A stretch of DNA of 46,919 bases. Origin: a virus. The number at the start of each line of letters is the position of its first letter. Position 1 is the first letter of the stretch. The DNA is taken from the IMG/VR virus record IMGVR_UViG_3300033571_011832, positions 1-46,919 of that record, one strand, 5' to 3'. The position numbers and the translations under genes are program-made. The notes beneath the pieces are model-generated. The model made no database searches. It saw only the letters and a list, made by a program, of their open reading frames with translations, and was not told the DNA's origin. Below, piece after piece: positions 5,975 to 35,361 of the stretch.

Positions 5975-7642
5975 TTACCCTTCTCCTACTTCTTCGTCGA
6001 TGACGTGAGAGACAAGCTTCGTCTTGTCGTCTCGAACAACTGTGCGCTTGATGCGGCGCGGCTTGTTTAGCTTATTATTCTTCTCGTCGATAGTGTCTTC
6101 AATACGCTTCAACGAGATAGCCATTTCGGTGAAAGCCGTCATGGCCTCCTCCATACGTTTCGGTGCGGCGGCCTTGGCCCCCGAAGACTGGCTACCGGAG
6201 CCGCCAGCGCCACCAGTCTTACCCGTCTCGTTACCCTGTGACGCGCCGCCAGAACCAGCCGAAGTCGGTGGGTTCGCGCCGGTGCCTTGAGGGGCAGGGA
6301 GCGGTCGCAACACTTCATCTTCGTCGTCCTTACGACCACGCACCGGGAGACCGACGATAGAGCGGACGTAGTTCACGTCCTCTTGGTCCATGTCCACGAC
6401 ACCGGCGTTGTGCAGCAACCGGATCACGTCCGCGATCTCGGTGGCTTCGTACTCGCCGTAGCTCTGCCAGATCAAATCGGGATACGCCTCAACGTCGTAG
6501 TTGAGATCGACCATGTACTTGATGATCTTGTCTTGGATCAGTTCGCTGCACTCTTGGCCGATCTCGTCCGTCACCTTGAACAGTGTGCGGAGTTGAAGGC
6601 GCGATTGGCTGTCTGCGCCGCGAGTTTGTTTGTCGCCGAAGCCAAGCAGCGCTGGAACGAGGATACCTTTTGCGATTGCACCATCGTGATAGATAAGCGC
6701 CTCGTTATAGGTGGCCTGACCAGCGCGCGTGCTTTCAAGGACATCAACAACAACTCCTTCTGGAACCAGAATTTCGGCGCGGTTGCCGAGGTCGCTGAGG
6801 ATTTCCTTCAACGTCAGTTGAAGCTTCGAGCTAGCGCCCTTCGGATACTTCATCAGCAACGTGGGCGAACCGAGCCGTTCGAGGTACACGTTCCAGAAGT
6901 TGACGAGGAATTTCTTGGCCCACCAGTTTTTGTAGATCGAGCGCAGATCGCTGACGCCGTACACGTTGCCGAAGTCGGCTTGGTGCGGATAGTGCAGCAC
7001 CTTGCTGTACGGGATCGAGATTTCGTTCGCGTTGAACTGCGTGTCGATCTGCACAACGTCTTGGATGTTGCCGTGGCGGTCGAGATTAAACTCGATGGTC
7101 TCCGGGTCGCGGAACTTCACCGTCTTGAGCGTGATGCACGGCTTGCCCTTGTAGAGCGCGTACTCCCAAATGATTTCACCGAGCGAAAAGCCGTAGTCGA
7201 GCGCCGTCAACATTTCCTTGACGACGCGCTTGATCTTCGCGCGCTTGAACGCCCACGTCACGAAGTCCGCAACGTCCTTGTCCTTCTCGCTGTCGGAGGC
7301 CGGATCGAGATCGTAGGCGCGGCCATAGACGAGGATTTTCTTGAACGAGAGCGCGGCCTTCACCGCGTCGTCGTTCTTCATGCGCTTGTATTCCGTGAAC
7401 CCGCCCTTCTGGCGGATGATCTCATCGACGTTGAGGAAGCGGAACTGGTTGCCGCGCTTCGTGGGGTCGATCCCCATAATCATGTCGCGGCCAGAGGCCA
7501 CGGTAATTTGCTGCTCGATAGCCGACTTGGGACCACGGCGCGACGCGCGCTCAGCGCTGCGCTTCTTCTCGGGGCGCGCTGCATCCGGCGACGGCGCGGC
7601 GGCGGTCTTCGTGGTCTCTGTCTTCTTCGGAGGCTTCGCCAT
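5975..7642 (-). CDS. Portal protein (DUF935, Mu gp29-like)
   Basis: This 555-residue protein forms the portal ring through which DNA enters and leaves the head. The core (about residues 50-430) has features of the Mu gp29/DUF935 family: KMLTALDYGFSLGEIIWEY, LHYPHQADFGNVYGVSDLRSIYKNWW and ERLGSPTLLMKYPKG. The N-terminus is a basic, Lys/Pro-rich tail. The C-terminus has a low-complexity Gly/Ser linker (about 435-480) and a charged end. It overlaps the end of the large terminase gene, as usual for packaging partners. A Mu gpF-like minor head gene would normally follow, but none is seen. Confidence 0.93.
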   Translation of the reverse strand: MAKPPKKTETTKTAAAPSPDAARPEKKRSAERASRRGPKSAIEQQITVASGRDMIMGIDPTKRGNQFRFLNVDEIIRQKGGFTEYKRMKNDDAVKAALSFKKILVYGRAYDLDPASDSEKDKDVADFVTWAFKRAKIKRVVKEMLTALDYGFSLGEIIWEYALYKGKPCITLKTVKFRDPETIEFNLDRHGNIQDVVQIDTQFNANEISIPYSKVLHYPHQADFGNVYGVSDLRSIYKNWWAKKFLVNFWNVYLERLGSPTLLMKYPKGASSKLQLTLKEILSDLGNRAEILVPEGVVVDVLESTRAGQATYNEALIYHDGAIAKGILVPALLGFGDKQTRGADSQSRLQLRTLFKVTDEIGQECSELIQDKIIKYMVDLNYDVEAYPDLIWQSYGEYEATEIADVIRLLHNAGVVDMDQEDVNYVRSIVGLPVRGRKDDEDEVLRPLPAPQGTGANPPTSAGSGGASQGNETGKTGGAGGSGSQSSGAKAAAPKRMEEAMTAFTEMAISLKRIEDTIDEKNNKLNKPRRIKRTVVRDDKTKLVSHVIDEEVGEG

Positions 7643-9261
7643 TACATCACCCTGTCGTCGAGGCGGTCACGTTGGCGACCCTTGATGATCTCGTCTTCCG
7701 TAGTCCCGGCGACGGTCTCGTCGGCCATCGAATAGAAATCGGCAAGCCCGATGACTATCACGTCGATACGGTCGGGGGAAGACCCTACACCGAGCCGCGC
7801 CTTGAGCATCTTCTTACTCTCAACCCGGATTTTCTGGTTTTCCATAACCTCGTACTTGAGCGTAGCGGCCTGGGCCGGTAGCTCCTCGTCCGGTGGGATA
7901 TGGCACAAGCCCTGTTCGAACAGGCGGCGCACCTTCCAGAAGTCCCGCGCGCGGCGGTTCAGGAACATACGGATTTCGTCATCCGGGTCCACCCCTGCCA
8001 CCAGACCCTTACCGCCGTTATAGGCGGTGACGGCGCGGCCAAAGCCGCCCTGGTTCTCGCCTTCCGCTGCGGGGTCCATCCGCAGGATGTCGATCACGCC
8101 GCCGCCGACGCCCGGCTCGTCAACCCGGATGTCGAGCACAGGGATACCCTGCTCCTCCCAATACTGGCACTCCAAGTCGATCAGCGACGCGGTTTCCCAG
8201 GTAGAGGTCTTCGGGTAAGCCTCAAGCTTGATGACGTGGCCCTTGCGGACCACACAGATCGTGGTCTCGTCGTCACCGTAACGGGCAGGGTCGCACGCGA
8301 TGATGACGCCATCCGCGATGGGGTCGAAGTGCGGTAGCTCGACCTGCTGCGCCATGAGCGCCCACGCGAGTGGGATGACGGCGGTGTCGTCGAGCTTCGG
8401 GAAGACGCCGCGCACGCGCACGTCGTAGATCGCGCCCTTGCCGTACTTGCGCGCGATGTTGCGGCGATACTTCTCGGACACGCGGTTTGAGACGTACACC
8501 TTGCCGTCTTCCGCGCCGAACTGCGTCTCTCCGTCGCCGCTGAGCGTGTAGCGCGCGTAGAGGTCTTTGTTCTTGTTGAATGCGTCGTACAGTTCGCCCG
8601 ACGTGAAGTTCGGGTTTCCCATCATTACGAGCTTGCTCTCGCCGCCAGACTTACCGGCGTCGGAGAGCGCACCTTCCATGACCTCGAACACCGGAGCGGG
8701 AACACCCGACGCTTCGTCGATGATAATCATCAGATAGGTGTTGTGGAAACCTTGGACGTTCTCTGGTTTGTTCGAGGTTCGGCCAACGGCGAACCAATCC
8801 ATCGGCGCGGCTTTGCAGCGAATGTGCTCACTCGACAGAGTGAACATATTCTTGAAGCGGTCGTTCATCTTGCCGTGCCACTTCGAGAACTCCGGCCACA
8901 GCACGTCGCGCAACTGAGCTTGCACCGGCGCGGTCGCGAGCACGCGCGACATCGGGCGGGTCATCAAGAAAATCCAGCCCATCCACGAGAGCACGGTGGT
9001 CTTACCCGTACCGTGCGCCGACTTACCGGCGAGGCGGTCTTCGCCGTTGACGAACACGTCGTTGAGCATGTCGCCCTGGTAGTCCTCCGGCGTCGCGCCG
9101 AAGATGTCCTTCACCGCCTGCACAGGGTTCTGGCCCCATTCAAGGAGCGCGAGTTCCAAGTCGCTCAAATCCTTCGGCGTCGCGGCCACGAGCGGTGGCG
9201 GCGGTGGCGCGAGGATCAGCTTCTTCTCGGTCTCGCCTATGATGATCGGCTTACGTGTCAT
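7642..9261 (-). CDS. terL: Terminase large subunit
   Basis: This 539-residue ATPase-nuclease drives DNA into the prohead. The Walker A motif is GKSAHGTGKTT (about residues 79-89). Walker B is YLMIIIDEAS with Asp182 and Glu183. The nuclease domain begins with VIIACDPARYGDDE, whose first Asp is a likely metal ligand, and continues with DEPGVGGGV. Length and domain order are those of a complete terminase. The start overlaps the end of the putative small subunit gene, and the last base is shared with the portal start. Confidence 0.95.
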   Translation of the reverse strand: MTRKPIIIGETEKKLILAPPPPPLVAATPKDLSDLELALLEWGQNPVQAVKDIFGATPEDYQGDMLNDVFVNGEDRLAGKSAHGTGKTTVLSWMGWIFLMTRPMSRVLATAPVQAQLRDVLWPEFSKWHGKMNDRFKNMFTLSSEHIRCKAAPMDWFAVGRTSNKPENVQGFHNTYLMIIIDEASGVPAPVFEVMEGALSDAGKSGGESKLVMMGNPNFTSGELYDAFNKNKDLYARYTLSGDGETQFGAEDGKVYVSNRVSEKYRRNIARKYGKGAIYDVRVRGVFPKLDDTAVIPLAWALMAQQVELPHFDPIADGVIIACDPARYGDDETTICVVRKGHVIKLEAYPKTSTWETASLIDLECQYWEEQGIPVLDIRVDEPGVGGGVIDILRMDPAAEGENQGGFGRAVTAYNGGKGLVAGVDPDDEIRMFLNRRARDFWKVRRLFEQGLCHIPPDEELPAQAATLKYEVMENQKIRVESKKMLKARLGVGSSPDRIDVIVIGLADFYSMADETVAGTTEDEIIKGRQRDRLDDRVM

Positions 9262-9853
9262 CTTCTACCAGAGCGCTTTCTTCGTAACTAGGGCCTCGTG
9301 TCTCGGATTTCGCCTCGATGAAGCGTGCGCCGTCCATGCGTGCGCGCGCGAGTGACGCGGCGCGTTCGACGGCGGCGAGGAAGCCGATAGGGTCGTCCTT
9401 CGACATTTCGTCCGCATCCTTGCCCTTCGCCTTACGCGGCGACGACGGAGGTAGCACGCGGTCCATGAGCTTGTGCAGAATTTTCATCCGCTCGCGCGTC
9501 GAGACTTGGACGTAGGCGACCTTCACACCGCCGCCCGCCTGCGGCACGTACACCGGGATCGACATACCGCTTACGATGGCGTTCGCCATGCCGATGGGAT
9601 CGACCTCTTGCTGGATGCGCAGGATGTCATCCTCGTAGGTCGGGACGCCGCCACCGGCCTTGCGGCACTCCTCCTCGATAATCTCGCGCGCGGTGCGGTT
9701 CTCCGCGAAGTGCATACGCACGCCGGGCGGGACGAAGACGGCAGGGGTGAGCGGTCGAAGCTCGCCGTCGAGCGCGAGTTCGAGCGTCTTGAGCGCGGTG
9801 CCGACCAGCTTCTTCGCTTCGTCGTCGGGGAGTAGGTCTTCTTCGTCGTCCAT
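9251..9853 (-). CDS. Putative terminase small subunit
   Basis: This 200-residue charged protein starts MDDEEDLLPDDEAKKLVGTAL. Its middle (FAENRTAREIIEEECRKAGG) could form a helix-turn-helix, and a Lys-rich linker follows (SSPRKAKGKDADEMSKDD). It overlaps the large terminase start by 11 bases. Position, size and charge suggest the DNA-recognition subunit, but I see no diagnostic family motif. ATG at 9853 is preferred over an in-frame TTG at 9874, which lies inside the repeat element just upstream. That element could be its recognition or control site. Confidence 0.6.
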   Translation of the reverse strand: MDDEEDLLPDDEAKKLVGTALKTLELALDGELRPLTPAVFVPPGVRMHFAENRTAREIIEEECRKAGGGVPTYEDDILRIQQEVDPIGMANAIVSGMSIPVYVPQAGGGVKVAYVQVSTRERMKILHKLMDRVLPPSSPRKAKGKDADEMSKDDPIGFLAAVERAASLARARMDGARFIEAKSETRGPSYEESALVEDDT

Positions 9854-9864
9854 CCGGCATTTTC

Positions 9865-9951
9865 CAAAATACAATAAGAGGGGGCTCAGTCGGGAGTTTT
9901 GAAGTTACACACCGTAACTTCAAAGTCGCGGCCATTAGGCTCTCTTATTGT
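9865..9951. repeat. Palindromic intergenic element, copy A
   Basis: The centre is a perfect 11-bp inverted repeat, TTTGAAGTTAC/GTAACTTCAAA, with a 5-base spacer (9898-9924). It is flanked by inverted copies of ACAATAAGAG (9871-9880) and CTCTTATTGT (9942-9951). Bases 9865-9885 match bases 15392-15412 exactly over 21 bp in inverted orientation. The element fills the gap upstream of the putative small terminase gene. It could be an operator, a packaging signal or a small mobile palindrome. Confidence 0.85.
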
Positions 9952-10727
9952 TCCAGCGCATCGTCCACACTCAAATACCCTGCCGTTGGAGAAAACTTCT
10001 CGTATCCGGCGAGTGTTAATATCGGCCTGACCCTATCAGCATAGCGTGATCGAGGCAACGCGCGACGGTGGCGGTCCATCATCACGAACTCGTCCTTCAC
10101 ATATTCGGTGCCGCAGTCGAGCCATTCGCGGAGAAGCGAGTGGCGAATTTCGAGGACTTCGCACACGTCCGTGCCGAACTCGTGCCCCGCGACGCGCATC
10201 CCGCGTAGCAGGTGCCTGACCCGTTCCGGCCCGAAGACATACGCCTCTCGCTGCGCTACCTGCCACTTCTTCGACGACCGGCGCAGACGCCAGTCGATCT
10301 CAAAATAGTCGGCGTCGGCGGGCGGCGGGCCGTGTAGCTCGTCGCACCTCTCGACGGGACCGAACTGGAACATGAACTTGTCGCTGTCGATTTCGGGGGT
10401 GTATCCACGGAACAGCTTTTCGAGGCCCACCGGCGAGGCTTCGAGGATACAGGATGCGCGGTGGAAGATGTCGCGCACAGTCGTGTGCGTCGGCACCGGG
10501 AAGCGCCACGCGACAGCCTTCTGCCCGAGGTCGGGCACAGAGCGCTTGAACAGTTTGTAGCCCTCGCCGTTCGCCACATACGCAGTGCAGCGAATGCGCT
10601 CCGGGTCGATCTCACCAGCGAGAAGATCGCGGCGCGCGCCTGGGTACTCTGTCAGAAAATTGATGTCTTTTTCTGACACCCAAGCGTGCCACTCAGCCCG
10701 CAAGTGGTCCTTCGTAATCGTATCCAT
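9945..10727 (-). CDS. Hypothetical protein, 260 residues
   Basis: This protein is not recognised. It is soluble, basic and rich in Arg, with a Trp-containing N-terminus (LRAEWHAWVSEKDINFL) and a C-terminal tract FVMMDRHRRALPRSRYADRVRP. There is no membrane segment or clear catalytic motif. The start overlaps the end of the next upstream gene by 35 bases, and the stop codon lies inside the right arm of the palindromic element. Codon usage matches the head genes. Confidence 0.7.
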   Translation of the reverse strand: MDTITKDHLRAEWHAWVSEKDINFLTEYPGARRDLLAGEIDPERIRCTAYVANGEGYKLFKRSVPDLGQKAVAWRFPVPTHTTVRDIFHRASCILEASPVGLEKLFRGYTPEIDSDKFMFQFGPVERCDELHGPPPADADYFEIDWRLRRSSKKWQVAQREAYVFGPERVRHLLRGMRVAGHEFGTDVCEVLEIRHSLLREWLDCGTEYVKDEFVMMDRHRRALPRSRYADRVRPILTLAGYEKFSPTAGYLSVDDALEQ

Positions 10728-11064
10728 AGTGTGTATGTAGCTCCATCACTGCGTAATAGTGTTTTGTGTCGATCTCACCAATCGCAGCAGAATAAAGCTC
10801 ACCACACCTACCGTCTTCAATATACTCGTGTGCCTCTTCCCACGCCTTATTTATGTAATAGACGCGGAGCGTAGCAAGCCAGTAGTTGAAGTAAGCGAAC
10901 TTAATAGCGCGTTCTTGCCGTGGTCTAAACTCCCGCATTTCAGGAGCGACCATTTCTTCCGGCGACGGAAAATCAAAAAGGTATTGATCCGCGCGATCAA
11001 GCCAACAGTGCAACGCCGAAGGAAACTGATCCCTCGACGTTGCCGGAAATGCTACATCTGACAT
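10693..11064 (-). CDS. Hypothetical protein, 123 residues
   Basis: This protein is not recognised. It is rich in aromatic and acidic residues (KFAYFNYWLATLRVYYINKAWEEAHEYI), which suggests a compact helical protein. It ends with a Tyr/Gly tail (HYGYDYEGPLAG). It has no signal or membrane segment. The ATG follows the upstream stop after three bases and has only a weak ribosome site, so translation is probably coupled. Confidence 0.7.
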   Translation of the reverse strand: MSDVAFPATSRDQFPSALHCWLDRADQYLFDFPSPEEMVAPEMREFRPRQERAIKFAYFNYWLATLRVYYINKAWEEAHEYIEDGRCGELYSAAIGEIDTKHYYAVMELHTHYGYDYEGPLAG

Positions 11065-11067
11065 GGC

Positions 11068-11439
11068 TTACACCACGTCGATGTTCGGGGCTCTTTCTTT
11101 GGTTTCAGAAGTGACGACCGTGGTCGCCTCGGCGGCATCGGCACCAGGCAACACGCCGCGAGCGGCGAGGTAGCGCTGGAAGCCACTGAACACCTTCGGG
11201 CCGACGCCGCGCGCGGTGCGGATCGTTTCGAGTTGTTCGGCGCTAAGCGTGAACAGTTGCTCGAAGCTCGTGACGCGAAGTCCGACGAGCGCCTTGCAGG
11301 TGTTCTTGCGACCGAAGCCGAAGCCGTTGTCGAGCATGTCCGGTTCGACGTATTGCGTGACGAAGCGTTCGGACTTCGCCTCTCGGTTCTCGAACTTGGC
11401 CCTGCCAGCTTCGAGCATCTTCTTGAAAATTGCGAGCAT
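11068..11439 (-). CDS. Small protein with a helix-hairpin-helix-like region
   Basis: This 123-residue protein has a basic helical N-terminus. Residues about 55-95 (LRVTSFEQLFTLSAEQLETIRTARGVGPKVFSGFQRYL) resemble a helix-hairpin-helix DNA-binding module, with the GVGPK turn in place of the usual GIGxK. A Thr/Glu-rich tail follows. It might bind DNA non-specifically. The domain call is by eye only. It lies nine bases after the HD phosphohydrolase gene in the same orientation. Confidence 0.65.
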   Translation of the reverse strand: MLAIFKKMLEAGRAKFENREAKSERFVTQYVEPDMLDNGFGFGRKNTCKALVGLRVTSFEQLFTLSAEQLETIRTARGVGPKVFSGFQRYLAARGVLPGADAAEATTVVTSETKERAPNIDVV

Positions 11440-11448
11440 GTCTTTCTC

Positions 11449-12006
11449 CTATAAAACCATCGCCGCGTGGTCGAGAAACAGGATCGCGGCGGCGTCGCGG
11501 TCCAGAATTGTGTCGAGCCACCGGCCTTTCGGCACGGTCCACCTGTCGAGATCGGCAGGGAAGCCGTATTCGGGGTTGATGGCCCACCGCGCGTCGGGAT
11601 GCAAGTGCTCCCGCGCCTCGGTGACGAGCATGAAGGTGTCGGCCTCCTTGACGATCTCCGGCAGCGGCCAGTCGAAGTCGAACTTCGTGGCGATGGCCGA
11701 CATCAGGCTGTGCTCGAACGGGTAGTATTGCGGCATCTGCACCTTGAGCGGTCGCGCCACGTCGCGCAGGATGAACTCGCTCGCATCGTGGAACAGCGCG
11801 GTGCGCTGATCGCGGAGAGTGCCGCCGAGGGCTTCGACAACGAGCTTCACGTTGACGCTGTGCTGCGCCACGCTCATGTCCATCTGCCCCGCGAAGCGCA
11901 GTTCGCACGCGAGACCAAACACGATGTCTTCGAGTAGAATGTGATCCGGGTCGGGGTTCACAAAGTCGAGCAGCTTACCGCTGCGCGTAGCAAGGCACGT
12001 CTTCAT
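11449..12006 (-). CDS. HD-domain phosphohydrolase (YfbR/DatZ-like)
   Basis: This 185-residue protein has the HD metal-binding pattern: His49 in SVAQHSVNV, His73-Asp74 in ALFHDASEFILRDV, and a later Asp in KEADTFML near residue 133. This is the YfbR-type group, which removes phosphate from deoxynucleotides. In phages with 2-aminoadenine DNA the related DatZ destroys dATP. AAGGAG stands before the ATG. Two other nucleotide-pool enzymes occur at 28.9-30.1 kb. The substrate cannot be told from the sequence. Confidence 0.87.
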   Translation of the reverse strand: MKTCLATRSGKLLDFVNPDPDHILLEDIVFGLACELRFAGQMDMSVAQHSVNVKLVVEALGGTLRDQRTALFHDASEFILRDVARPLKVQMPQYYPFEHSLMSAIATKFDFDWPLPEIVKEADTFMLVTEAREHLHPDARWAINPEYGFPADLDRWTVPKGRWLDTILDRDAAAILFLDHAAMVL

Positions 12007-12007
12007 T

Positions 12008-12265
12008 TTAGCTCCTTACCGGATGAACCCGGAAGCCCTTCGTGAAGTGGTAGCGCACGTCGTAGAGCGCACCGTCCACCATATTCTTGAGGATGCGCTT
12101 CGGCACGCCGATACTCGCGAGGAAGGTTTTCGTGCCTCGCATTTCGGGTGTGGAGCGTCTGTTGGCTGTGCCTCGGGCCTCGGTGATCTTGTGCGCGCCG
12201 ACGCGGTTCTTCTTCGTCACGAAGCCGACGCCCTGCTGGCGGATCAATGTGCGTCTCATTCCCAT
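12008..12265 (-). CDS. Small basic hypothetical protein, 85 residues
   Basis: This protein is not recognised. It is strongly basic (MGMRRTLIRQQGVGFVTKKNRVGAHK) and has no membrane segment or Cys clusters. GGGAG lies upstream of the ATG, and the upstream stop lies immediately before it. It sits in a run of closely packed small genes that ends with the HD phosphohydrolase. A nucleic-acid-binding role would fit its charge but is a guess. Confidence 0.65.
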   Translation of the reverse strand: MGMRRTLIRQQGVGFVTKKNRVGAHKITEARGTANRRSTPEMRGTKTFLASIGVPKRILKNMVDGALYDVRYHFTKGFRVHPVRS

Positions 12266-12266
12266 G

Positions 12267-12467
12267 TCAATTCTCCCTTATGCGCTTCATGTACTTCACG
12301 AGGTCTTCCGCCTCTGCCGCCGCGAGGATCAGCGCATCACGCACCGTCTCCATCGTGGCAATACCAATCCTGCGCCGCACGAGCGCGAGCACCAAACACC
12401 CGCTGGCGACGCCTATGTACTTCCAGATCGTCTCGGCTCGCGCCTCGATGTGCTGCGAAGGCGTCAC
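12267..12467 (-). CDS. Small protein with one hydrophobic segment, 66 residues
   Basis: The longest frame begins at 12557, but its first 30 residues are a shadow of the upstream gene. I chose GTG at 12467 because it overlaps the upstream TGA (GTGA) and gives a sensible protein, VTPSQHIEARAETIWKYIG. It has one weak hydrophobic stretch (VASGCLVLALV) and a charged C-terminal helix. Function is unknown; it is probably co-translated with the membrane protein before it. Confidence 0.65.
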   Translation of the reverse strand: MTPSQHIEARAETIWKYIGVASGCLVLALVRRRIGIATMETVRDALILAAAEAEDLVKYMKRIREN

Positions 12468-12643
12468 TGCTTTTCCCAAAACTTCGGGCGGATGACGTTG
12501 TTGCGCGGGCGCTTGAAACGGTTCACCAGCCACGCGAGACCGAGGATCACCCCACACGTTCCGAGGCCGAGGGCCAGGAAGGTAAGAAAAACACCAGCAA
12601 CGATCCCTGCCGTGGCGGCAAGGTAGTCATAGAACACTTCCAT
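12464..12643 (-). CDS. Small membrane protein, 59 residues
   Basis: This gene starts with ATG at 12643 and ends at a TGA that overlaps the next start. Residues about 8-42 (LAATAGIVAGVFLTFLALGL, then GTCGVILGLAWLV) could form one long or two short membrane helices, and a basic tail follows (NRFKRPRNNVIRPKFWEKQ). The positive C-terminus suggests it faces the cytoplasm. No family is recognised, and a role in lysis or exclusion cannot be judged. Confidence 0.7.
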   Translation of the reverse strand: MEVFYDYLAATAGIVAGVFLTFLALGLGTCGVILGLAWLVNRFKRPRNNVIRPKFWEKQ

Positions 12644-12649
12644 CGGTTT

Positions 12650-13084
12650 CTACCCTTTCTTCGCGGTTCGAGACCTTTTAACCGGCTTGGCCGGTTCAAC
12701 ACCAGTGGTCATTTTGTCGCGGTGCGTTTTCCGCTTCATAGAACGCTTATGTGATCGAATGCGGTGGCAATTAGAACAGACGACATCGCACTTCTCGATT
12801 TCCTTGAGCACGCGGGGCAGGGACACGCAGTTACTCAGCATCTTCGATATGTCCTGCGTCTTCTTCCCGCGCTCCTCAATATGGTCAAAATCCATGCAGT
12901 AGTGCGGGAAGCTCTGCTGGCAATCACTGCATGGATGGTTTTCCTTGTACGCATGGACGACGGCGATAACCTCGACGCGATGGCGCTTGGTCTGTTGCCG
13001 ACGCCATTTGACGTACTTCTCCTTGTTCGCCGCATAGAAGCGGCGTGCGGCGGCCCGCTGTTCTTCTTTGCTCGCGTAAGGCAT
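12650..13084 (-). CDS. HNH endonuclease
   Basis: This 144-residue protein has a classic HNH layout with a structural zinc ribbon: Cys52-x2-Cys55 (PCSDCQ), Asp67-His68 in MDFDHIE, and Cys103-x2-Cys106-His107 (CSNCHRIRSHKR). The N-terminus is basic and helical and the tail is Lys/Arg-rich. Such free-standing HNH proteins may act as homing endonucleases or help the terminase. This one is 3.4 kb upstream of the terminase among accessory genes, which favours homing or host-DNA cutting. The enzyme class is clear and its role is inferred. Confidence 0.9.
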   Translation of the reverse strand: MPYASKEEQRAAARRFYAANKEKYVKWRRQQTKRHRVEVIAVVHAYKENHPCSDCQQSFPHYCMDFDHIEERGKKTQDISKMLSNCVSLPRVLKEIEKCDVVCSNCHRIRSHKRSMKRKTHRDKMTTGVEPAKPVKRSRTAKKG

Positions 13085-13110
13085 AGCGGGACACTAGCTG
13101 TAGCGTGCCG

Positions 13111-13347
13111 CTATTTCAACTCGTCGATGACTTGCTGACCGCGAAGGCGAGCGATTTCGAGATCGCGCTCAGCGAGCTTCACCTTCAACTCACCGTGAGC
13201 AATACCGAGTTCGACGAACTCGCGTTTCAGTTCGCGAAGCTCGGTACGCGCGGCAACAAGCTGCTCGAAGATTTCGACGACGCGCGCCTGCTCGTGCAGC
13301 AACTCGTACTTGAGGTTCGTGAGTTGGGTTGGTTTACGCTTTGCCAT
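13111..13347 (-). CDS. Small coiled-coil protein, 78 residues
   Basis: Almost the whole protein from residue 10 on is a heptad-patterned helix (LLHEQARVVEIFEQLVAARTELRELKREF), which predicts a coiled-coil dimer or a partner-binding rod. The start follows the upstream stop by three bases with GGGGTAAG before it. No catalytic residues are visible. Function is unknown. Confidence 0.7.
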   Translation of the reverse strand: MAKRKPTQLTNLKYELLHEQARVVEIFEQLVAARTELRELKREFVELGIAHGELKVKLAERDLEIARLRGQQVIDELK

Positions 13348-13350
13348 GAC

Positions 13351-13698
13351 TTACCCCTGAAACTGGCCGAGGCTACGGCCTTCGTTAACGCTGATCTCGA
13401 CCCCTGCCGCTTCGCTGTCGTAGCGCTGCATCCAGATGGTCTCGCCGTCGTAGCGATAGCCGAACCACATCGACTGCGTAGCCATAGCGAGCAGCGACGC
13501 GATCTGGACGGGGCTCTCCAAGACGGGCAGGGCTTGGCCTGCGTCGTCAACGATGATGCCGTTCGCCCAAGCCGGAAGCTGAGCGCGCGTAACGAGACCG
13601 GGCGGCGGTGCCATGAAGCGAGCTACAGAGCGAGGCGTGAGATAGCACTCCTCGACCTTGCCGTCCTCGTTGCGCATGTGAACGATAAAGCTGCTCAT
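13351..13698 (-). CDS. Hypothetical protein, duplicated family, full-length copy
   Basis: This 115-residue protein starts MSSFIVHMRNEDGKVEECYLTPRSVARFMAPP. The next upstream gene (13700-13978) encodes a clear paralogue of its first 80 residues, and the DNA around both starts is nearly identical. The C-terminus (FGYRYDGETIWMQRYDSEAAGVEI) is present only here. The start overlaps a TGA in another frame as ATGA, a relic of the original junction with the gene at 13975-14193. Function is unknown. Confidence 0.75.
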   Translation of the reverse strand: MSSFIVHMRNEDGKVEECYLTPRSVARFMAPPPGLVTRAQLPAWANGIIVDDAGQALPVLESPVQIASLLAMATQSMWFGYRYDGETIWMQRYDSEAAGVEISVNEGRSLGQFQG

Positions 13699-14015
13699 TT
13701 TACTTTCTCCACTTGCTCATAGCGTTCGATGAAGATGTGCAGAACCACATCGGCTGCGTGGTCATCGCGAGCAGCGCGGCGATCTGGCCGGGGGCCTCCA
13801 AGACGGGCAGGGCTGTGCCGTATGGATCGACGACGATGGTCTTCGCCAACGCCGGGATTTGCCCAGCGGCGACGAGGTTCTTCGGCGGTGCCATAAAGCG
13901 CGCGACCGACTGCGGCGTGAGGAAGCAATCCTCTGGTGTGCCTTCGTCGTTCAACACGTGGACCATAAAGCTGCTCATTTTACTTTCTCCACTTTCTCAT
14001 AGCGCTCGATGAAGA
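13697..14015 (-). repeat. Local tandem duplication, unit about 279 bp
   Basis: Bases 13697-13732 match bases 13976-14011 with two mismatches. They carry the end of one gene (peptide IFIERYEKVEKVK) and the start of the next (MSSF). Between them the encoded proteins are homologous to the adjacent gene, so one unit was copied head to tail. The join near 13731-13733 truncates the upstream MSSF copy. Confidence 0.85.
13700..13978 (-). CDS. Truncated paralogue of the adjacent gene, 92 residues
   Basis: Residues 1-78 (MSSFMVHVLNDEGTPEDCFLTPQSVARFMAPPKNL) parallel the downstream 115-residue protein. Homology stops at PMWF, where the duplication join enters a copy of a neighbouring gene in another frame. 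The last 14 residues (CTSSSNAMSKWRK) are therefore junk sequence. The ATG overlaps the upstream TGA (ATGA). The protein may be partly functional or a decaying duplicate; the paralogues have diverged clearly in sequence, so the event is not recent. Confidence 0.7.
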   Translation of the reverse strand: MSSFMVHVLNDEGTPEDCFLTPQSVARFMAPPKNLVAAGQIPALAKTIVVDPYGTALPVLEAPGQIAALLAMTTQPMWFCTSSSNAMSKWRK

Positions 14016-14193
14016 TGTGGCGCTGCACGTACCGTATCTTCGTCGCGTAGAAGCGTTCTTCAACACCGTTCTCGTCGCACGCGACAACCGCGTACTCTTT
14101 GTCGCTCACCAAGATCACCTTGACGAACTCGACAACCCACTCTTTGCATGGAGAGAGGCGACGATAGACATCGCCAACTTGTGTGCCGTTCAT
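13975..14193 (-). CDS. Small hypothetical protein, 72 residues
   Basis: The sequence MNGTQVGDVYRRLSPCKEWVVEFVKVILVSDKEYAVVACDENGVEERFY suggests a small beta barrel (alternating strands and charged turns). The C-terminal peptide HIFIERYEKVEKVK is repeated in a different frame at 13697-13735 as part of the local duplication. AAAGAGAGA precedes the ATG, and the stop is coupled to the next start. Function is unknown. Confidence 0.7.
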   Translation of the reverse strand: MNGTQVGDVYRRLSPCKEWVVEFVKVILVSDKEYAVVACDENGVEERFYATKIRYVQRHIFIERYEKVEKVK

Positions 14194-14351
14194 CGCGTTC
14201 TCTCTTTCTCTATCCGGGGCGACGGGGTTTCGGCCCGCCGCCAGCCTTTTCCGCAGTGCGCAGCGCGGGCAGGCTTTTCAATCCGTGAGGCGAGACCCTG
14301 CCATAGCTACGCGCGGCGCGCAACTGTGGCGGGATGTCACATACCGCTCGA
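14194..14351. other. Short spacer without a convincing gene
   Basis: A 25-codon minus-strand frame starts at an ATGA overlap with the upstream gene (ATG near 14355) and ends near 14278. It has no supporting features. The rest of this spacer shows no strong hairpin or repeat. Confidence 0.4.
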
Positions 14352-14552
14352 TCATTCGACGCCGCCTTTACCCGTGCGGGGCCGCGACCAGTAGCAACCG
14401 TGCCCGATGTTCGTTCCCCGCATAAAGCGCGGCGGGTAGAACCGAATTTCCCTACGCGGTGCCTCGGGTATCTTCTTCACCTCGACGGGTGGCTTCGGTG
14501 TCTTCTGTGTCTCCACGAGTTCGACCCTAGCAGCGTGGGCAGGGGTGTCCAT
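14352..14552 (-). CDS. Small Pro/Arg-rich hypothetical protein, 66 residues
   Basis: The product starts MDTPAHAARVELVETQKTPKPPVEVKKIPEAPRRE and is basic and Pro-rich, so probably extended. GAGG precedes the ATG and the gene follows a well-supported small gene after six bases. The composition could also arise by chance in GC-rich DNA, so confidence is moderate. Confidence 0.5.
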   Translation of the reverse strand: MDTPAHAARVELVETQKTPKPPVEVKKIPEAPRREIRFYPPRFMRGTNIGHGCYWSRPRTGKGGVE

Positions 14553-14558
14553 GCGACA

Positions 14559-14738
14559 TCACGCCTCATACTCGGGCACGCACCGCGCCGACATGAAAAC
14601 CGCGCCACGCAGGGGAGGCGGTCGAAGGTTCAGGTCACGAGCTACAGCTTCGCACGCCCTGCCGCTCTGGAACTCCTGCCGTATCTCCCTCGGGCCTTCG
14701 GCTGTCATCAGCCAGACGATCACGATCCACACATTCAT
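14559..14738 (-). CDS. Small membrane-associated protein, 59 residues
   Basis: The frame is open from 14813, but AAGGAG lies just before ATG at 14738, and the upstream part overlaps a large inverted repeat. The chosen product starts MNVWIVIVWLMTAEGPREI: a hydrophobic N-terminal segment that could be an anchor or signal, then a charged domain with two Cys residues (GRACEAV, SARCVPE). Secreted or inner-membrane topologies are both possible. No family is recognised. Confidence 0.65.
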   Translation of the reverse strand: MNVWIVIVWLMTAEGPREIRQEFQSGRACEAVARDLNLRPPPLRGAVFMSARCVPEYEA

Positions 14739-14811
14739 GGCCGATCTCCTTCGAGAGCCACGTTGGCGCGGTTTTTCGGGACTTACAACGGGCTGAGTGT
14801 CGCAGGGGTGC

Positions 14812-14879
14812 AAAAACGACCTCTATACGAGGCACGAGACCCGAAATGCGGTGATTTGACCCGTATAAGAGGCGTTTTT
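14812..14879. terminator. Large imperfect inverted repeat, likely bidirectional terminator
   Basis: The left arm 14812-14829 (AAAAACGACCTCTATACG) and right arm 14862-14879 (CGTATAAGAGGCGTTTTT) pair over 17 positions with two single-base bulges. Each arm ends in a run that becomes five Us on the exiting strand. The loop of 32 bases is longer than usual, which lowers confidence. It would end minus-strand transcripts from the island before the 14738 gene. Confidence 0.6.
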
Positions 14880-15259
14880 CGTGGTTCGGGCCTTGGGTTT
14901 CTGGGATTTTTTCTGTGCGATTTTAGAAAACGCAGTCCTCGCTCCTAGATACCTAGGCGGAGACCCACACGGCAAAATTAACCACGCCGCAAAAACCACC
15001 GGCGGCCCATGGTTAACAAGTAAAGGCAAGTAATCCCGAGACACAATACATGAGACACATTGCCACACATCTTGTGTTTCGTGTTTCGTGTCTTGGGGTG
15101 TGCTGCACCTATACTTGAGACACGAGACAAGGGGCGCGGAATACTAGGGGCAGGGCTTGGGATGGCGTGCATCGGGGTTTGGGTCTCGGGTTTCGTGTAT
15201 AGAGAGCGTCTATGGATGAGGGGTGGACCTATAGACGGGGGCAGGGGGAGCGACAAATT

Positions 15260-15412
15260 ACAATAAGGGGGCGGGGAAATTCTGATTTTGAAGTTACGCT
15301 GTGTAACTTAACCATGTGCGCGCGTGCCCCTTTTAAGGGAAAAGCTCAATAACCATAAGTTACACACTGTAACTTCAAACTCGCGCCGTCTGCCCCCTCT
15401 TATTGTATTTTG
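15260..15412. repeat. Palindromic intergenic element, copies B and C
   Basis: Two AAGTTAC-N5-GTAACTT palindromes (15288-15310 and 15356-15379) lie head to head. They are flanked by ACAATAAGGGGG (15260-15271) and the inverted CCCCCTCTTATTGT (15393-15406). The right end matches element A at 9865-9885 exactly over 21 bp in inverted orientation. A further small palindrome (CCCTTTTAAGGG) lies in the middle. Confidence 0.85.
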
Positions 15413-15419
15413 TCACGGC

Positions 15420-15647
15420 TCACCCTGCCCCCAGGATAGCGGCGGGGTGCATCAATGCCCCTGCCCCTATCAGCGCCCCTGCTACCACGCACCCCAAGGC
15501 ACAAAGCCCGAGACACGAAACAAGAGCCAATAGGGCAAGCGCCCCGCGCCCCGCCCTAGCTATGCGCCGCGCATATAGCGAAACGACTAGAACCGCCCCA
15601 GCGGCAAAGCCAAACGCCGCAAGGGTCAGCAATTCGGGGGCGCTCAT
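15420..15647 (-). CDS. Small membrane protein, 75 residues
   Basis: Two hydrophobic segments, about residues 5-26 (ELLTLAAFGFAAGAVLVVSLYA) and 36-68 (ALALLALVSCLGLCALGCVV), are separated by an Arg-rich loop (RRIARAGRG). This predicts two membrane helices with a cytoplasmic loop. The ATG overlaps the upstream stop. Two helices and under 80 residues would fit a holin-like or exclusion protein, but nothing specific is seen. It is the last gene of the island before the palindromic element. Confidence 0.65.
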   Translation of the reverse strand: MSAPELLTLAAFGFAAGAVLVVSLYARRIARAGRGALALLALVSCLGLCALGCVVAGALIGAGALMHPAAILGAG

Positions 15648-22455: not shown

Positions 22456-22481
22456 GGGGGCATTTGTAACCTATAGGCCGC

Positions 22482-22567
22482 ATTGCAAATTCCCCATTGC
22501 ATTGCAAACTCGCCGGGGGGGGTATTGCAAACCCGCCAGCACCCCTTATTGCAAACTCGCCGGCCCG
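22482..22567. repeat. Four ATTGCAAA iterons
   Basis: ATTGCAAA begins at 22482, 22501, 22524 and 22548. In three units it is followed by CTCGCCGG or CCCGCCAG. Spacings are 19, 23 and 24 bp. The last copy overlaps the end of the neighbouring gene, and a CCCCTTATTG word there recalls the ends of elements A and C. Confidence 0.75.
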
Positions 22568-24462: not shown

Positions 24463-24761
24463 TAGCCGTTCGCTGCGACCTGCGCAGCGGTCGGCGCACC
24501 GACGAAGCGCATCTGTGTCGGGATCAGCGTCGTGAAGTCGTCGGACGCCGAATAGAGCACCGTGTTGAGGTCGATGCCGTGCTTGATCGCCTGATCTTGC
24601 CAGAACAGACGCATGTCCTGCGCGACGGCGGCGGCACGCTGCTCGTACTGAGCTTGGAAGTCAGCCGTCATCTTTTGCAGCGCGTTCTCACGCGCCACCA
24701 GCGCCGCCAGCTTCGCTTGATCCGCCTTCTCCAACGGGATCGCTTGGGGTAGGTTCGTCAT
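24462..24761 (-). CDS. Hypothetical helical protein, 99 residues
   Basis: The product MTNLPQAIPLEKADQAKLAALVARENALQKMTADFQAQYEQRAAAVAQDM is a long helix with coiled-coil character, then a short domain (DLNTVLYSASDDFTTLIPTQ). GAGGAG precedes the ATG. It overlaps the 3' end of the polymerase gene by 74 bases, so it is translated from the same message. It is not recognised. Confidence 0.7.
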   Translation of the reverse strand: MTNLPQAIPLEKADQAKLAALVARENALQKMTADFQAQYEQRAAAVAQDMRLFWQDQAIKHGIDLNTVLYSASDDFTTLIPTQMRFVGAPTAAQVAANG

Positions 24762-27639
24762 TCTCTTTCTCCTCTAAGAAGTCGCTCACTTCGACAACTC
24801 TATCGACCATGAGCCAACGTCCGCTGTCGTTTATACACGTTCCGCGCACGAGGAACAGCTTACCTTCGCTGTCTTGGTCATGCCAAATCGTCGCACCCAT
24901 GTCCGCGTACTTAAAGCGGTTCACCGTGCAGCCGATCTCGCCGGTGCCGTCGTCGAGGATCATGTTGAGGAAGTGCTGCGGGCCAGCGTTCTTGCCACCG
25001 CCGCGCTTTGCCACGCGCTCGGGATCGTTGCTGTCGCGCAGCGTCTTCTTCTTCAACACGCCGCAGATCAGATACGAACCCCTGCCTACGGGCACCTCGC
25101 AGATGCGATGGGCAGGGCCGGTCACGCCAGCGGGTGTGTTCTTCGTCTTGAAGTCGTCGGGGCTGTCGTAGAGCGGGCGCAGCTTGCGTTGCAGGCGGCC
25201 CACGTCCGCCCACGCCCAATTCTCCGGGTCTTCGATCTTCTTCAACACGCCGGGGCCGATCTTGGCCTTCCACGACGGGCCGGTCTCGTCACGCAGCGCG
25301 ACGATCTTCTCGGCGGTCTTGAGGCCGATGCCCTTCACGTTCAGGAAGCCGCCGATCAGCGCCCCGTCTTCGATGCGCCAGTTGACGCCGCTGCGCTCCG
25401 CGTCGAACGGGATGATCGTCACGTCATCCCTTTCTAGCTCTTGCAGCAGCGCCTTCGAGCCTTCTTCGTCCTTCGCGTTCAGTAGTTGCGCGTGGCCGTA
25501 TTCAAGCGGGAAGTGCGCCTTCAAGTAAGCGGTGATGTAGCTCACCATCGAGTAGGCGACGGCGTGCGAGAAGTTGAAGGCGTAGCTGCCGCTTTCCTCC
25601 ATCTGGTGCCACAGGGACTTGGCGATTTTCTCGCCAACCTTGACCCCTGCGTTTTTCAAAAATTGGTCTTCAAATTTTTTCAATTCCTCGGGCAATTTCT
25701 TTCCTATTGCGCGGCGGAATTTGTTCGTGTCTTCGATGGAGAAGTCCGCGATGTAGCGGACGATGTTCATCATCTGCTCCTGATAGATCACGGTGCCGTA
25801 GGTGTCGCCAAGGTACGGCTCTAGCAGCGGGTGCTCGAAGGACATTTCCTCGTCGCCGCGCCGACGCTTCACCCAATTACCTGCGGCACCACCTTCCAGC
25901 GGGCCAGGGCGAGCGAGAGAGGTGAGGGCGCAGAGATCGGAGAACCGATCAACGGTGATCTGGCGCGTGAGGCCGCGCACCGTGCTGCCTTCAAACTGGA
26001 ACACACCAGTAAGAAGGTCGCGGCGGAAAAGATCGAACGTCTCGTCGTTGTCGAGAGGCAGTTTGTAAAGCTGTTGGACATCAAGCCCGGCCTCTTTGCA
26101 GCAGTCCTCGATCACGCTGAGCGTGCGCAGGCCCAGCGCGTCCATCTTCAACGCGCCGATTTCCTCAGCGTCCTTCAACGTGAGCGCGGCGACGCTTTCC
26201 TCGTCCACCGAGGCGTAGCGCGTGATGTCGTCGGCGGTGACGACGATGCCTGCGGCGTGGACACCATGGTGGCGTGGCTGGCCTTCGAGAAGCGCGGCCT
26301 TCTTGAAGTTGGGGAATTGCTCGACGACCATAGCGATTGCTTTGTCTTCGAACGCTTCCTCAAGCGTCATGTCTTCTCCCATGAGACGCGCCACCAGCCG
26401 AGAGGTTTCGAATGGGACTTTGAGGGCGCGGGCGGTGTCGTTTAGGGCCGACTTGCCCGCGAGTTCAGCAACCGTACCGATCTTAGCGACGCGAGCGGCA
26501 CCATAGGTCGCAATAAGGTGGGTAAGAATCTCTCCCCGCGATCTGTCGGGGAAGTCAACGTCAATGTCGGGCCAGTCATTCCGCGTGATGTCGATAAACC
26601 GCTCGAACAGCGTTCCATGCACGATTGGATCGACCTCAGTAATTCCGAGGAGATAGCAGACGAGACTGCCTCCCGAACTGCCGCGACCTGGGCCGACGAA
26701 CATTCGTTGCTTGGCCCATCCAACAAGCTCTCCGACGAATAGGAAATAATCTGCGAAGTTTTTAGCTCGGATGACTTCAAGTTCGGCGTCCAGCCGCTCT
26801 CGGTACACGCCGGTTCCGACGTTGATTTCTCGGGTGGCGGCTCCGTCAATGCAAAGCTGATGGAGTTTTGTCTGCGCATCTTCGAATGTAATGTTGCGGG
26901 CTTTGGGAACGCGGACGGTTGCTGCCCCAGCAGCCACATATCCTTCGGCAACATCGAAAGCTCGTCCAATAATGTCGTCCGAAACTTTGAATTGGGCGAG
27001 GCCATGTCGATACTCTTTCTCCGACATCATGTGATGCACCGGCAGATCAATGTCACCGATGCGCTGCATGTTCGACGTGGCGCGGACCATATCATAGCCG
27101 TCGCGGTGTTCGATGCGGGGGAATGACGCACCCAACGCAGCGATGGGCGTGCAGTCGCCGCTCTTAATCATACCGATCATGTGGCCGGGCGCGGGGCGCA
27201 GCGCCACCGGGTAGCCCTGTGCAGCGGGGATGTCGCGCGTCTCAATGCGGACGTGCTCTACGATCACGCCGATGCCGCGCGTCTTAAGCTCGCGCACTTG
27301 GTTCCACGTCAGCCGTGGCCGGTAGAACATCTGCGACTTGGCCCTGCCCATCGCCTTGTAGATTTCCTGCAAGCCATCCTGATTGATGGCGACCAGGGTG
27401 ACGAGATCGTGGCGGGGGTCTTTGTCGAGTTGAAGCACGACGGGCAGGGTGATGCCGAACACAGGGAGGATGTCGGCCTTCAAGCATTCCTTCTGGAACT
27501 GGATGTGACCCCAAGTGGAGCAGTAGTCCGCGAGACCCAAGACACGAAGCCCGAGTTCCGAGGCACGCTTCACGATCTGCTTCGGCGTGCCATACGCACG
27601 CAGGAAGCTGTAGCTAGAGCGAGTGTTTAGGTGGATCAT
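24688..27639 (-). CDS. dnaE: DNA polymerase III alpha subunit (DnaE-type)
   Basis: This 983-residue family C polymerase has an N-terminal PHP domain (HLNTRSSYSFLRAYGT and GLADYCSTWGH). The palm carries GPGRGSSGGS (residues 316-325), PDIDVDF (Asp360, Asp362) and KMDALGLRTL (Asp500), so the catalytic triad is complete. A helix-hairpin-helix (NVKGIGLKTAEKI) and an OB-like region (ICGVLKKKT to NDSGRWLMVDRVVEV) follow. It is shorter than E. coli DnaE (about 1,160). The first PHP motif reads HLN where HxH is usual, so PHP nuclease activity is doubtful; a separate DnaQ-type exonuclease is encoded nearby. No clamp gene is seen. Confidence 0.95.
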   Translation of the reverse strand: MIHLNTRSSYSFLRAYGTPKQIVKRASELGLRVLGLADYCSTWGHIQFQKECLKADILPVFGITLPVVLQLDKDPRHDLVTLVAINQDGLQEIYKAMGRAKSQMFYRPRLTWNQVRELKTRGIGVIVEHVRIETRDIPAAQGYPVALRPAPGHMIGMIKSGDCTPIAALGASFPRIEHRDGYDMVRATSNMQRIGDIDLPVHHMMSEKEYRHGLAQFKVSDDIIGRAFDVAEGYVAAGAATVRVPKARNITFEDAQTKLHQLCIDGAATREINVGTGVYRERLDAELEVIRAKNFADYFLFVGELVGWAKQRMFVGPGRGSSGGSLVCYLLGITEVDPIVHGTLFERFIDITRNDWPDIDVDFPDRSRGEILTHLIATYGAARVAKIGTVAELAGKSALNDTARALKVPFETSRLVARLMGEDMTLEEAFEDKAIAMVVEQFPNFKKAALLEGQPRHHGVHAAGIVVTADDITRYASVDEESVAALTLKDAEEIGALKMDALGLRTLSVIEDCCKEAGLDVQQLYKLPLDNDETFDLFRRDLLTGVFQFEGSTVRGLTRQITVDRFSDLCALTSLARPGPLEGGAAGNWVKRRRGDEEMSFEHPLLEPYLGDTYGTVIYQEQMMNIVRYIADFSIEDTNKFRRAIGKKLPEELKKFEDQFLKNAGVKVGEKIAKSLWHQMEESGSYAFNFSHAVAYSMVSYITAYLKAHFPLEYGHAQLLNAKDEEGSKALLQELERDDVTIIPFDAERSGVNWRIEDGALIGGFLNVKGIGLKTAEKIVALRDETGPSWKAKIGPGVLKKIEDPENWAWADVGRLQRKLRPLYDSPDDFKTKNTPAGVTGPAHRICEVPVGRGSYLICGVLKKKTLRDSNDPERVAKRGGGKNAGPQHFLNMILDDGTGEIGCTVNRFKYADMGATIWHDQDSEGKLFLVRGTCINDSGRWLMVDRVVEVSDFLEEKENDEPTPSDPVGEGGSSEAGGAGGA

Positions 27640-27957
27640 TTAGTTTACTTTTGTTGTGTCGAAATCAAACTCGCCGCCGCGAAGCTTCTCCATCATTTTC
27701 CCGATGTCGCACAGTGCGCTTCCCCACGGAAGCATGTTCTTTGGCATGTTATCTCGTTCTTCTGTTGTGAAGAATAGATTGTCGCCAATTATGTGGATGA
27801 TAGAGCCGACCATAACCCGACCCTGGTGGGGGTGTTTTGCAAACACGTCCATAACCAAAATCTTGTCATCGTTGACAGTTCTATTATCGACAAGCTTGAT
27901 GTCGATAGAACCTAGAGCGGCTTCTAAGCCAACAATTTCATAATCAGTTAGGTCCAC
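27640..27957 (-). CDS. Hypothetical protein, 105 residues
   Basis: I chose GTG at 27957 because TAGGAGAG lies six bases before it; the longer frame from a TTG at 28011 runs back into the upstream gene. The product is a mixed alpha/beta protein (VDLTDYEIVGLEAALGSIDI, KILVMDVFAKHPHQGRVMVGS, HIIGDNLFFTTEERD). It abuts the polymerase start. Its function is unknown. Confidence 0.65.
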   Translation of the reverse strand: MDLTDYEIVGLEAALGSIDIKLVDNRTVNDDKILVMDVFAKHPHQGRVMVGSIIHIIGDNLFFTTEERDNMPKNMLPWGSALCDIGKMMEKLRGGEFDFDTTKVN

Positions 27958-27968
27958 TTTATTCTCTC

Positions 27969-28127
27969 CTATAAGTCCCACTCGTATAACGCTTCGCGGG
28001 CCGCGCGCCAAGGCGGCGTGCCCTTCTTAATCTCGCGGTCGTAGTAGTCACGCACCTCGTCTTCGAGGCCGTGCTCCTTGGCGATGTTGATCGCCCACTG
28101 CCGCGCCCTGTCTTCTTCGGCGCTCAC
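27969..28127 (-). CDS. Small acidic protein, 52 residues
   Basis: GTG at 28127 overlaps the upstream TGA (GTGA), and the stop is at 27969. The product (SAEEDRARQWAINIAKEHG, then LEDEVRDYYDREIKKGTPPW) is a charged helical protein ending YEWDL. Repeated phage proteins of this type are often short helical adaptors. No function can be assigned. Confidence 0.65.
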   Translation of the reverse strand: MSAEEDRARQWAINIAKEHGLEDEVRDYYDREIKKGTPPWRAAREALYEWDL

Positions 28128-28372
28128 TCTGGATCGCCTAGCATATCGACAAGCTCCATCGCCTCAGACATTGCCTTTAGCTCATCGGCCAGTAGGCCGC
28201 GAAGAACATCGCCGTTGCCGTTCGTGCCATAGAAGGCGATGCTCTTGCCAGCAGGCTTCATGCAAATGCCGACTTGTCGCTTCTCTTTTTCAAGAGCAAA
28301 AACTTCGAACAGTCTGCAATGCACGCCTTCGACAACGCCGCCCGGCTTCTCTACGATAACAGTGTTTGCCAT
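28124..28372 (-). CDS. Small hypothetical protein, 82 residues
   Basis: The true start is ATG at 28372 (MANTVIVEKPGGVVEGVHC); the long upstream extension is a shadow of the neighbouring gene. Alternating hydrophobic residues (LFEVFALEKEKRQVGICMKP, GKSIAFYGTNGNGDV) suggest a beta domain, and a helical C-terminus follows. Both ends overlap neighbours by one to four bases. Function is unknown. Confidence 0.65.
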   Translation of the reverse strand: MANTVIVEKPGGVVEGVHCRLFEVFALEKEKRQVGICMKPAGKSIAFYGTNGNGDVLRGLLADELKAMSEAMELVDMLGDPE

Positions 28373-28878
28373 TATACTATCTCCAACTCTGACATGGGTC
28401 GTAGCTTTTCCAACGCCACGCGGACGTGTGGGCGACCGCGCCACGCTTTCAGGTCGCATTCCTCGCTGTTGGCGAGTACATCTTTCGAGTTGATCCAGCC
28501 CAGGAACTCGACCTCGTGTGCGCGCTCGTCGTAGCGCGACATCACGAACGTGTCGCAGCGGTCGAGGTTCTTGGTGCCGACCACCATGCCGGTGCAGTTC
28601 GGTGGCCCCGACTTCACGTCGATGCGGCGACCATTCGATAGCTGGTAGTCCCACCCACCGTCGCCTTTGAGTTCGACATCACCCCGGAATTGACCACTCA
28701 GGGTATCCGAAAGTAGGGAGAACGCAAACTCGCAGACGGTCGAGCGCACCTCCATCCGTATCCGCTTCTCCTTGTCTTCGGGGCCGGTCTTAGACCCCTT
28801 CGCCATGTGCCCCTCGGCGCGGGCGTGCGCGATGGCGCGGCAGTAGCGGTACGGGCTAGAGTGGATACGGACTTTCAC
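28372..28878 (-). CDS. Putative PD-(D/E)XK-type nuclease
   Basis: GTG at 28878 overlaps the upstream TGA. The 168-residue product has WDYQLSNGRRIDVKSGP near residues 78-94. An upstream acidic residue, a D and then D-V-K in a strand-turn-strand setting match restriction-endonuclease-like folds. The C-terminus (KAWRGRPHVRVALEKLRPM) is basic. A role in DNA processing or host-DNA degradation is possible. The assignment is motif-based. Confidence 0.6.
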   Translation of the reverse strand: MKVRIHSSPYRYCRAIAHARAEGHMAKGSKTGPEDKEKRIRMEVRSTVCEFAFSLLSDTLSGQFRGDVELKGDGGWDYQLSNGRRIDVKSGPPNCTGMVVGTKNLDRCDTFVMSRYDERAHEVEFLGWINSKDVLANSEECDLKAWRGRPHVRVALEKLRPMSELEIV

Positions 28879-29138
28879 TTGTCGTACTCCACCAACAAGC
28901 TCTCTGTTGCAGCGAGCGCGTCGTTGAGTTCTTCGCGATACAGCTTGAGCGCAGCAACCAGCCTCTCTGTGTTGGTGGGTCCGTCTGCGGGGTAGCGGCT
29001 GTCGTGGCCGAACCGCACGATCTTCGCGATGCACTCGTTGACGTTGAGGGCTTCGCGTATAACCTCCGCGCTTTCCTCGATCACATGCGCCGACTTACCG
29101 GCGCGGTCGCCCGGCTTGGGGAGATATTGCTTGTGCAT
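28875..29138 (-). CDS. MazG-like nucleotide pyrophosphohydrolase
   Basis: The 87-residue product has KSAHVIEESAEVIREALNV and IVRFGHDSRYPADGPTNTERLVAAL, then a helix with EELNDAL. The E-E-x-x-E helix and a later E-x-x-D region are the metal-binding pattern of all-alpha MazG-like hydrolases, which cleave NTPs or dNTPs to monophosphates. It overlaps both neighbours slightly. It is one of three nucleotide-pool genes in this window. Confidence 0.7.
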   Translation of the reverse strand: MHKQYLPKPGDRAGKSAHVIEESAEVIREALNVNECIAKIVRFGHDSRYPADGPTNTERLVAALKLYREELNDALAATESLLVEYDK

Positions 29139-29734: not shown

Positions 29735-30110
29735 CTTTGGTAACGCCCTTATAGTTCTCGCGGGGATAGTCCTTCTTGCCGACGCCGCGCACCTGCATGG
29801 AGAACAGCACGAGCGCGTTCCACGCCACGCTCACCAGATGGTGCGACTTGGTTTCGTCGTCGTAGTCTTCGCCGCGCTCCCACGCTACGAGGTGGCGCTT
29901 GAGGGACGCCATCGTGTCGGACCACGACAGCCCCTTCTCCCAATTGCGCGGCGCGTACTTGATCGAGCCGAGGGTGAGGAGGTGGGCGAGGGCGTACAGC
30001 CATTCCCAAGGGATCAGGTCGATGCGGATTTTACCGGCGTTGAAGCGCAGCCCTTCTTCTGACTGCTCGTTCGCTGCGGTGTTACCTGGTGCTGGCTTGT
30101 CCTTAGACAT
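29727..30110 (-). CDS. dATP/dGTP diphosphohydrolase-like protein (DUF5664)
   Basis: This 127-residue protein matches the DUF5664 group: GLRFNAGKIRIDLIPWEWLYALAHLLTLGSIKYAPRNWEKG, then SLKRHLVAWERGEDYDDETKSHHLVSVAWNAL. The acidic helix and the His/Asp pattern resemble MazG-type hydrolases acting on purine deoxynucleotides. It lies next to the exonuclease and close to the MazG-like gene. It may balance or purge dNTP pools during replication. Confidence 0.85.
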   Translation of the reverse strand: MSKDKPAPGNTAANEQSEEGLRFNAGKIRIDLIPWEWLYALAHLLTLGSIKYAPRNWEKGLSWSDTMASLKRHLVAWERGEDYDDETKSHHLVSVAWNALVLFSMQVRGVGKKDYPRENYKGVTKDD

Positions 30111-34638: not shown

Positions 34639-34644
34639 TTTCGT

Positions 34645-35342: not shown

Positions 35343-35361
35343 GGCGTTTCATCCGGCTCAT

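Follow-up and report, generated by a model that had tools for sequence, protein, structure and literature searches.

Two palindromic elements, located 5.4 kb apart, were recognized in the window, which was a 46,919-base IMG/VR virus record analysed over its whole length: element 1 (9871 to 9951) lay between the 9945–10727 ORF and the small-terminase candidate, and element 2 (15260 to 15406) lay within a noncoding tract. All four half-elements followed a single formula, ACAATAAG–N19–TTTGAAGTTAC–N5–GTAACTT, with 26 of 26 fixed bases and exact spacing, and paired elements recurred in related phages. Judged from sequence comparison, there is about an even chance that these elements represent a control site that is bound by a protein and specific to each phage, probably late promoters (bidirectional and dependent on an activator) or operators.

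All genes identified in the window (from the ORF list and family matches) were on the minus strand, and in gene direction they displayed the following order: tail genes (44800 to 40802), replication genes (SNF2 helicase, AEP primase, UvrD helicase, and Pol III alpha), rIIA/rIIB/Gp88 homologs (21302 to 17365), the noncoding tract (14814 to 15643) containing element 2, a small-gene cluster (14813 to 9945), the small-terminase candidate (9251 to 9853, with its ATG at 9853), the terminase large subunit gene TerL (7642 to 9261; phrog_2), a Mu-type portal gene, and the capsid gene. The small-terminase candidate was assigned by position only: its product had no Pfam or PHROG match, and its AlphaFold model was uninterpretable (mean pLDDT 47.9); homologs of this product directly preceded TerL in L004, L035, L036, L037, and L043. 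The region from 24688 to 37140 encoded Pol III alpha, AEP primase, and the UvrD and SNF2 helicases, plus proteins resembling gp32–gp34 of phage Pam3. A glycosyltransferase-like ORF (2 to 1108, judged by sequence) directly followed the capsid gene and was cut by the contig end, and an adjacent duplicated gene pair (13351–13698 plus 13700–13978, together 13351–13978) corresponded to DNA repeat families D3 and D5 (82–85%). The preliminary description had placed element 2 at the edge of an island, but there is no such island: the 15.6–21.3-kb region was an ordinary early module carrying homologs of rIIA, rIIB, and Gp88, all on the same strand, and the position of Gp88 was the same in the relatives L035 and G005. 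The other edge of the early module (22476 to 22562) carried short GGCGAGTTTGCAAT-type direct repeats with C-runs, which accounted for the CCCCTTATTG word at 22542; the words at 22542, previously listed as related to the palindrome, were unrelated to it, being a one-mismatch box without dyad inside a short TTTGCAAT direct repeat.

Element 1 was symmetric (81 bp) and consisted of one central dyad TTTGAAGTTAC–ACACC–GTAACTTCAAA (9898 to 9924) and two outward-facing ends: (i) the left box CTTATTGT on the minus strand (ACAATAAG on the plus strand; 9871 to 9878), located 18 bp before the start codon of the small-terminase candidate, and (ii) the right box CTTATTGT on the plus strand (9944 to 9951). 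Element 2 (147 bp) had two dyads at a distance of 66 bp and, again, two outward ends: (i) a left half composed of a minus-strand outward box (15260 to 15267) and the dyad TTTGAAGTTAC–GCTGT–GTAACTT (15287 to 15309) and (ii) a right half composed of the dyad AAGTTAC–ACACT–GTAACTTCAAA (15357 to 15379) and the plus-strand outward box CTTATTGT (15399 to 15406). The palindrome and its double version, as initially described, were real: the dyad AAGTTAC–N5–GTAACTT was exact at three places (9902–9920, 15291–15309, and 15357–15375), while 0.46 matches at three or fewer mismatches were expected in the window and none of 100 shuffles reached 3. Likewise borne out was the 21-bp block CAAAATACAATAAGAGGGGGC, since 9865–9885 (plus strand) was the exact inverse of 15392–15412 (minus strand). 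The regularity found here was stronger than that reported earlier, with ACAATAAG standing at all four ends, 19 nt from TTTGAAGTTAC. The statement that both elements lay outside genes held for element 2, but the right end of element 1 (9944–9951) overlapped the stop codon of the 9945–10727 ORF. The next-best window match to the half-element had eight mismatches and fell on the left dyad of element 2 itself, on the other strand; the best match in 20 first-order Markov shuffles had nine. The 19-nt spacer was constant in length and variable in sequence except for a few bases beside the box, as is usual for protein-binding sites made of two parts. A direct BLAST search of phages with the region gave nothing useful, and no paper on the element was found in the literature searched.

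The comparison was extended to relatives found through portal and TerL searches, which formed a clade at ~47–84% identity and whose records were classed as linear, without end repeats. The relatives carried paired elements, each phage having its own sequence, one element standing in the noncoding tract ahead of the terminase genes, the other directly ahead of the portal operon. In a self-comparison of the terminase region of L037, the noncoding tract yielded a double element and the TerL–portal gap a second copy, with no other repeats returned; G005 (L043/L048) had the layout of L037 with a different sequence (a repeat of 60 bp at 87%, E 2e-13); L035 harbored a double element upstream of its terminase genes plus another copy in the TerL–portal gap, again with its own sequence; L065, whose TerL was 51% identical to the query, had a symmetric element following TerL, together with an incomplete copy upstream; and L064 displayed a 37-nt inverted match between the upstream noncoding tract and the gap after TerL. 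Comparison of site 1 with site 2 within each phage gave scores of 60 for the window, 60 for L037, 78 for G005, 36 for L035, and 38 for L065, each reached in 0 of 300 shuffles. The strong cases of pairing were the window, L037, and G005, while those of L035, L065, and L064 were modest, because unrelated gap pairs (L057 and L062) scored 32–33 in the same test; this test found no pair in the clade members L053, L054, L056, L058, L059, and L066. When every site 2 was compared with every site 1, within-phage similarity was significant in five of six phages, window included, the sixth (L036) lacking an upstream site because its contig ends there; between-phage similarity was mostly not significant, the exceptions being the related G005 and L035 and a G005/L036 pair.

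The dyads and boxes differed in sequence among phages despite near-constant spacing. The dyad centre was 33.5 bp from the outer TATAG/TTATTG box in all four halves of the window and 30.5–34.5 bp from it in 12 halves of L037, G005, L035, and L065 (one L036 half with a mis-set dyad being left out of the range), an agreement that was partly selected because in the relatives the dyads and boxes were chosen by eye once the repeats had been found. The -10-like box took the form TTATTG/TATTGT in the window and TATAGG, TATATA, or TACATA in the relatives. The preliminary description had named a lack of motif conservation between relatives among the points that would refute its reading; the letters were not conserved, but the layout and the geometry were. 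In L035, L036, L037, and G005, a reading of the gaps by eye placed a right-hand box some tens of bases upstream of the portal start codon, with an SD-like sequence between the two.

These features suggest how a control site might operate. A dimeric protein would bind the dyad of the paired, phage-specific cis-acting DNA site, and each outward end would carry a -10-like box ~33.5 bp from the dyad centre. If the box serves as a -10 element, the dyad centre would lie near -46, from where an activator could work on a weak promoter; this is not the P2 position, the dyad centre of P2 late promoters being at about -55. The most likely role of the site would be to switch on late transcription at the junctions that precede the terminase and structural genes, where the promoters would be weak and dependent on an activator, and one dyad might also serve a divergent promoter, by a logic like that of the P2 PP/PO pair. 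Activation, rather than repression, would be the probable outcome. In each case the element directly preceded the structural operon, and the 9–23-kb region contained no sigma-70-like promoter (5.3 expected), as would be expected if the promoters need an activator. Against a promoter, the box was a poor sigma-70 -10, half of the outward ends were antisense to the genes, and in the window a leader starting at the left box of element 1 would be only ~11 nt long. No recognizable activator or DNA-binding regulator was found among the window proteins scanned with Pfam, nor was an Ogr/Delta-type zinc-finger activator matched among them, the record being incomplete.

The closest known logic, by analogy, may be P2 late control. 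Among the TGT–N12–ACA late promoter sites of P2-like phages are two divergent promoters that share one site (PMC3931495). P2-type late promoters (Ogr/Delta; PP/PO) resembled the window elements in having few sites per genome at the starts of the terminase/portal and capsid operons, in placing an interrupted dyad ahead of a weak promoter (a putative one in the window), and in the possible use of one dyad for divergent promoters (PMC3931495). The window differed from P2 in its dyad sequence and in additionally having a doubled version with two dyads.

Because of the position of the elements, packaging or replication was the main rival to a control site, and it is a possible though on the whole unlikely explanation that they are recognition sites for binding by the terminase or an initiator and for this reason flank the terminase genes and the noncoding tract. 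The elements did lie next to the terminase genes, as cos/cosB or pac regions do, and in the noncoding tract, and this tract carried dense GAGACAC/GAAACAC-type tandem heptads (14829 to 15521), possible iterons; GAGACACGARAC at two or fewer mismatches matched 29 times in the window (9.4 expected), nine of the 29 matches lying in 14829–15521. The relatives moreover had a conserved noncoding block (CACCCCTTACCC..AAGTACCTAATTCC, also written as GGCCGGTGTTTTTGG..CACCCCTTACCCGTCTCGC..AAGTACCTAATTCC) situated before the small-terminase candidate, with site 1 on one side and the terminase genes on the other (L035:2221-2342, L036:253-373, L037:774-890, and L043:7844-7969), which could be cos; however, this candidate cos was separate from the elements, and its profile had no significant match in the window, where only GCCGGTGGTTTTTG near 15.0 kb was found. 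Unlike cos or pac, the elements formed two sites; in the window these were 5.4 kb apart, and in the relatives they flanked the terminase genes, the second one lying between TerL and portal, unusual for a second packaging site. The cumulative GC skew had its turns near 6.5 and 31 kb and none at 9.9 or 15.3 kb, and an origin at the elements was rejected on this ground. Two TTAACCAT words (15009–15016 and 15308–15315; 0.33 expected in the tract) resemble the alphaproteobacterial CtrA half-site, and control by host CtrA was rejected, as the full TTAA–N7–TTAA site was absent from the tract. GTTAAC/GGTTAA palindromes were numerous in the same tract of L036, L058, and L065.

It is improbable that the elements act instead at the RNA level, as bidirectional hairpins for termination or processing between operons, even though the window elements gave very good folds on either strand (z -4.5 to -7.2; -4.5 and -6.6 for element 1), and the same was true of site 1 in L035 and in G005 and of the L065 copy on the TerL side. 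The second copies of L037, G005, and L035 and the upstream copy of L065 folded about as shuffles did (z -0.5, -0.7, -1.2, and -1.7), and this loss of folding in most second copies of the relatives argues that DNA, not RNA, is recognized. The stems were, moreover, not like those of intrinsic terminators, and no such terminator (GC-rich stem followed by a T run) was called at either element. A small non-autonomous palindrome (MITE or REPIN-like) inserted twice is very improbable: its ends would be inverted and outward-facing and single and double versions would exist, as seen here, but neither copy had a target-site duplication (flanks AAAAT/TCCAG and AAATT/ATTTT), and the relatives carried non-homologous elements at similar positions. 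A search for AAGTTAC–N5–GTAACTT, which the preliminary description had proposed for related phages and the host genome, recovered unrelated places only, whether in 2.9 million virus contigs or in the genomes of 84,980 species (one genome each), and that the element was absent from these sets likewise speaks against a mobile repeat. No virus contig searched had the dyad plus box; the searches may leave out the records nearest the window, so close relatives may exist unseen. A looser dyad occurred in 10 virus contigs and in 12 contigs of bacteria or archaea, all without boxes and mostly of low GC content. One of these, the unrelated AT-rich phage G001 (L011), contained AAGTTACAGNCTGTAACTT-like palindromes, the repeated AAGTTACAGNCTGTAACTT being like the AAGTTAC–N5–GTAACTT dyad of the window; unlike the window, it had them at 15 places (two or fewer mismatches) and without outer boxes, and several stood directly before start codons in the part of L011 that was read. 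Promoters of T7-type or P23-45-type phage RNA polymerases were rejected, since no D.DGD-type polymerase motif in a plausible setting was found in the window and relatives examined and the variable 19 nt beside the box also disfavoured them, and so was a lox/dif-like or protelomerase site, which the elements resemble: the arm order was unlike lox, the dyads were short, and the spacer was asymmetric.

Among the roles originally suggested for the palindrome, the mobile one is therefore disfavoured and a control site, of operator or promoter type, is best supported, because of the within-phage pairing, the between-phage co-divergence, and the conserved dyad-to-box geometry. A more specific form of the control-site reading is tentative and, taken as a whole, rather unlikely: a paired dyad-plus-box switch would flank the terminase module, its position and geometry being kept across the clade while its letters co-diverge with a phage-encoded regulator of a new family, and it would drive divergent late transcription or couple it to packaging. 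If the control-site reading is right, it would provide a sequence-level handle on the switch-on of late genes in a poorly known phage clade with related TerL and a Mu-type portal; the paired sites would predict the regulon, their co-divergence would offer a route to the regulator, and the function of a cis-element would be visible through its geometry although its letters are not conserved.
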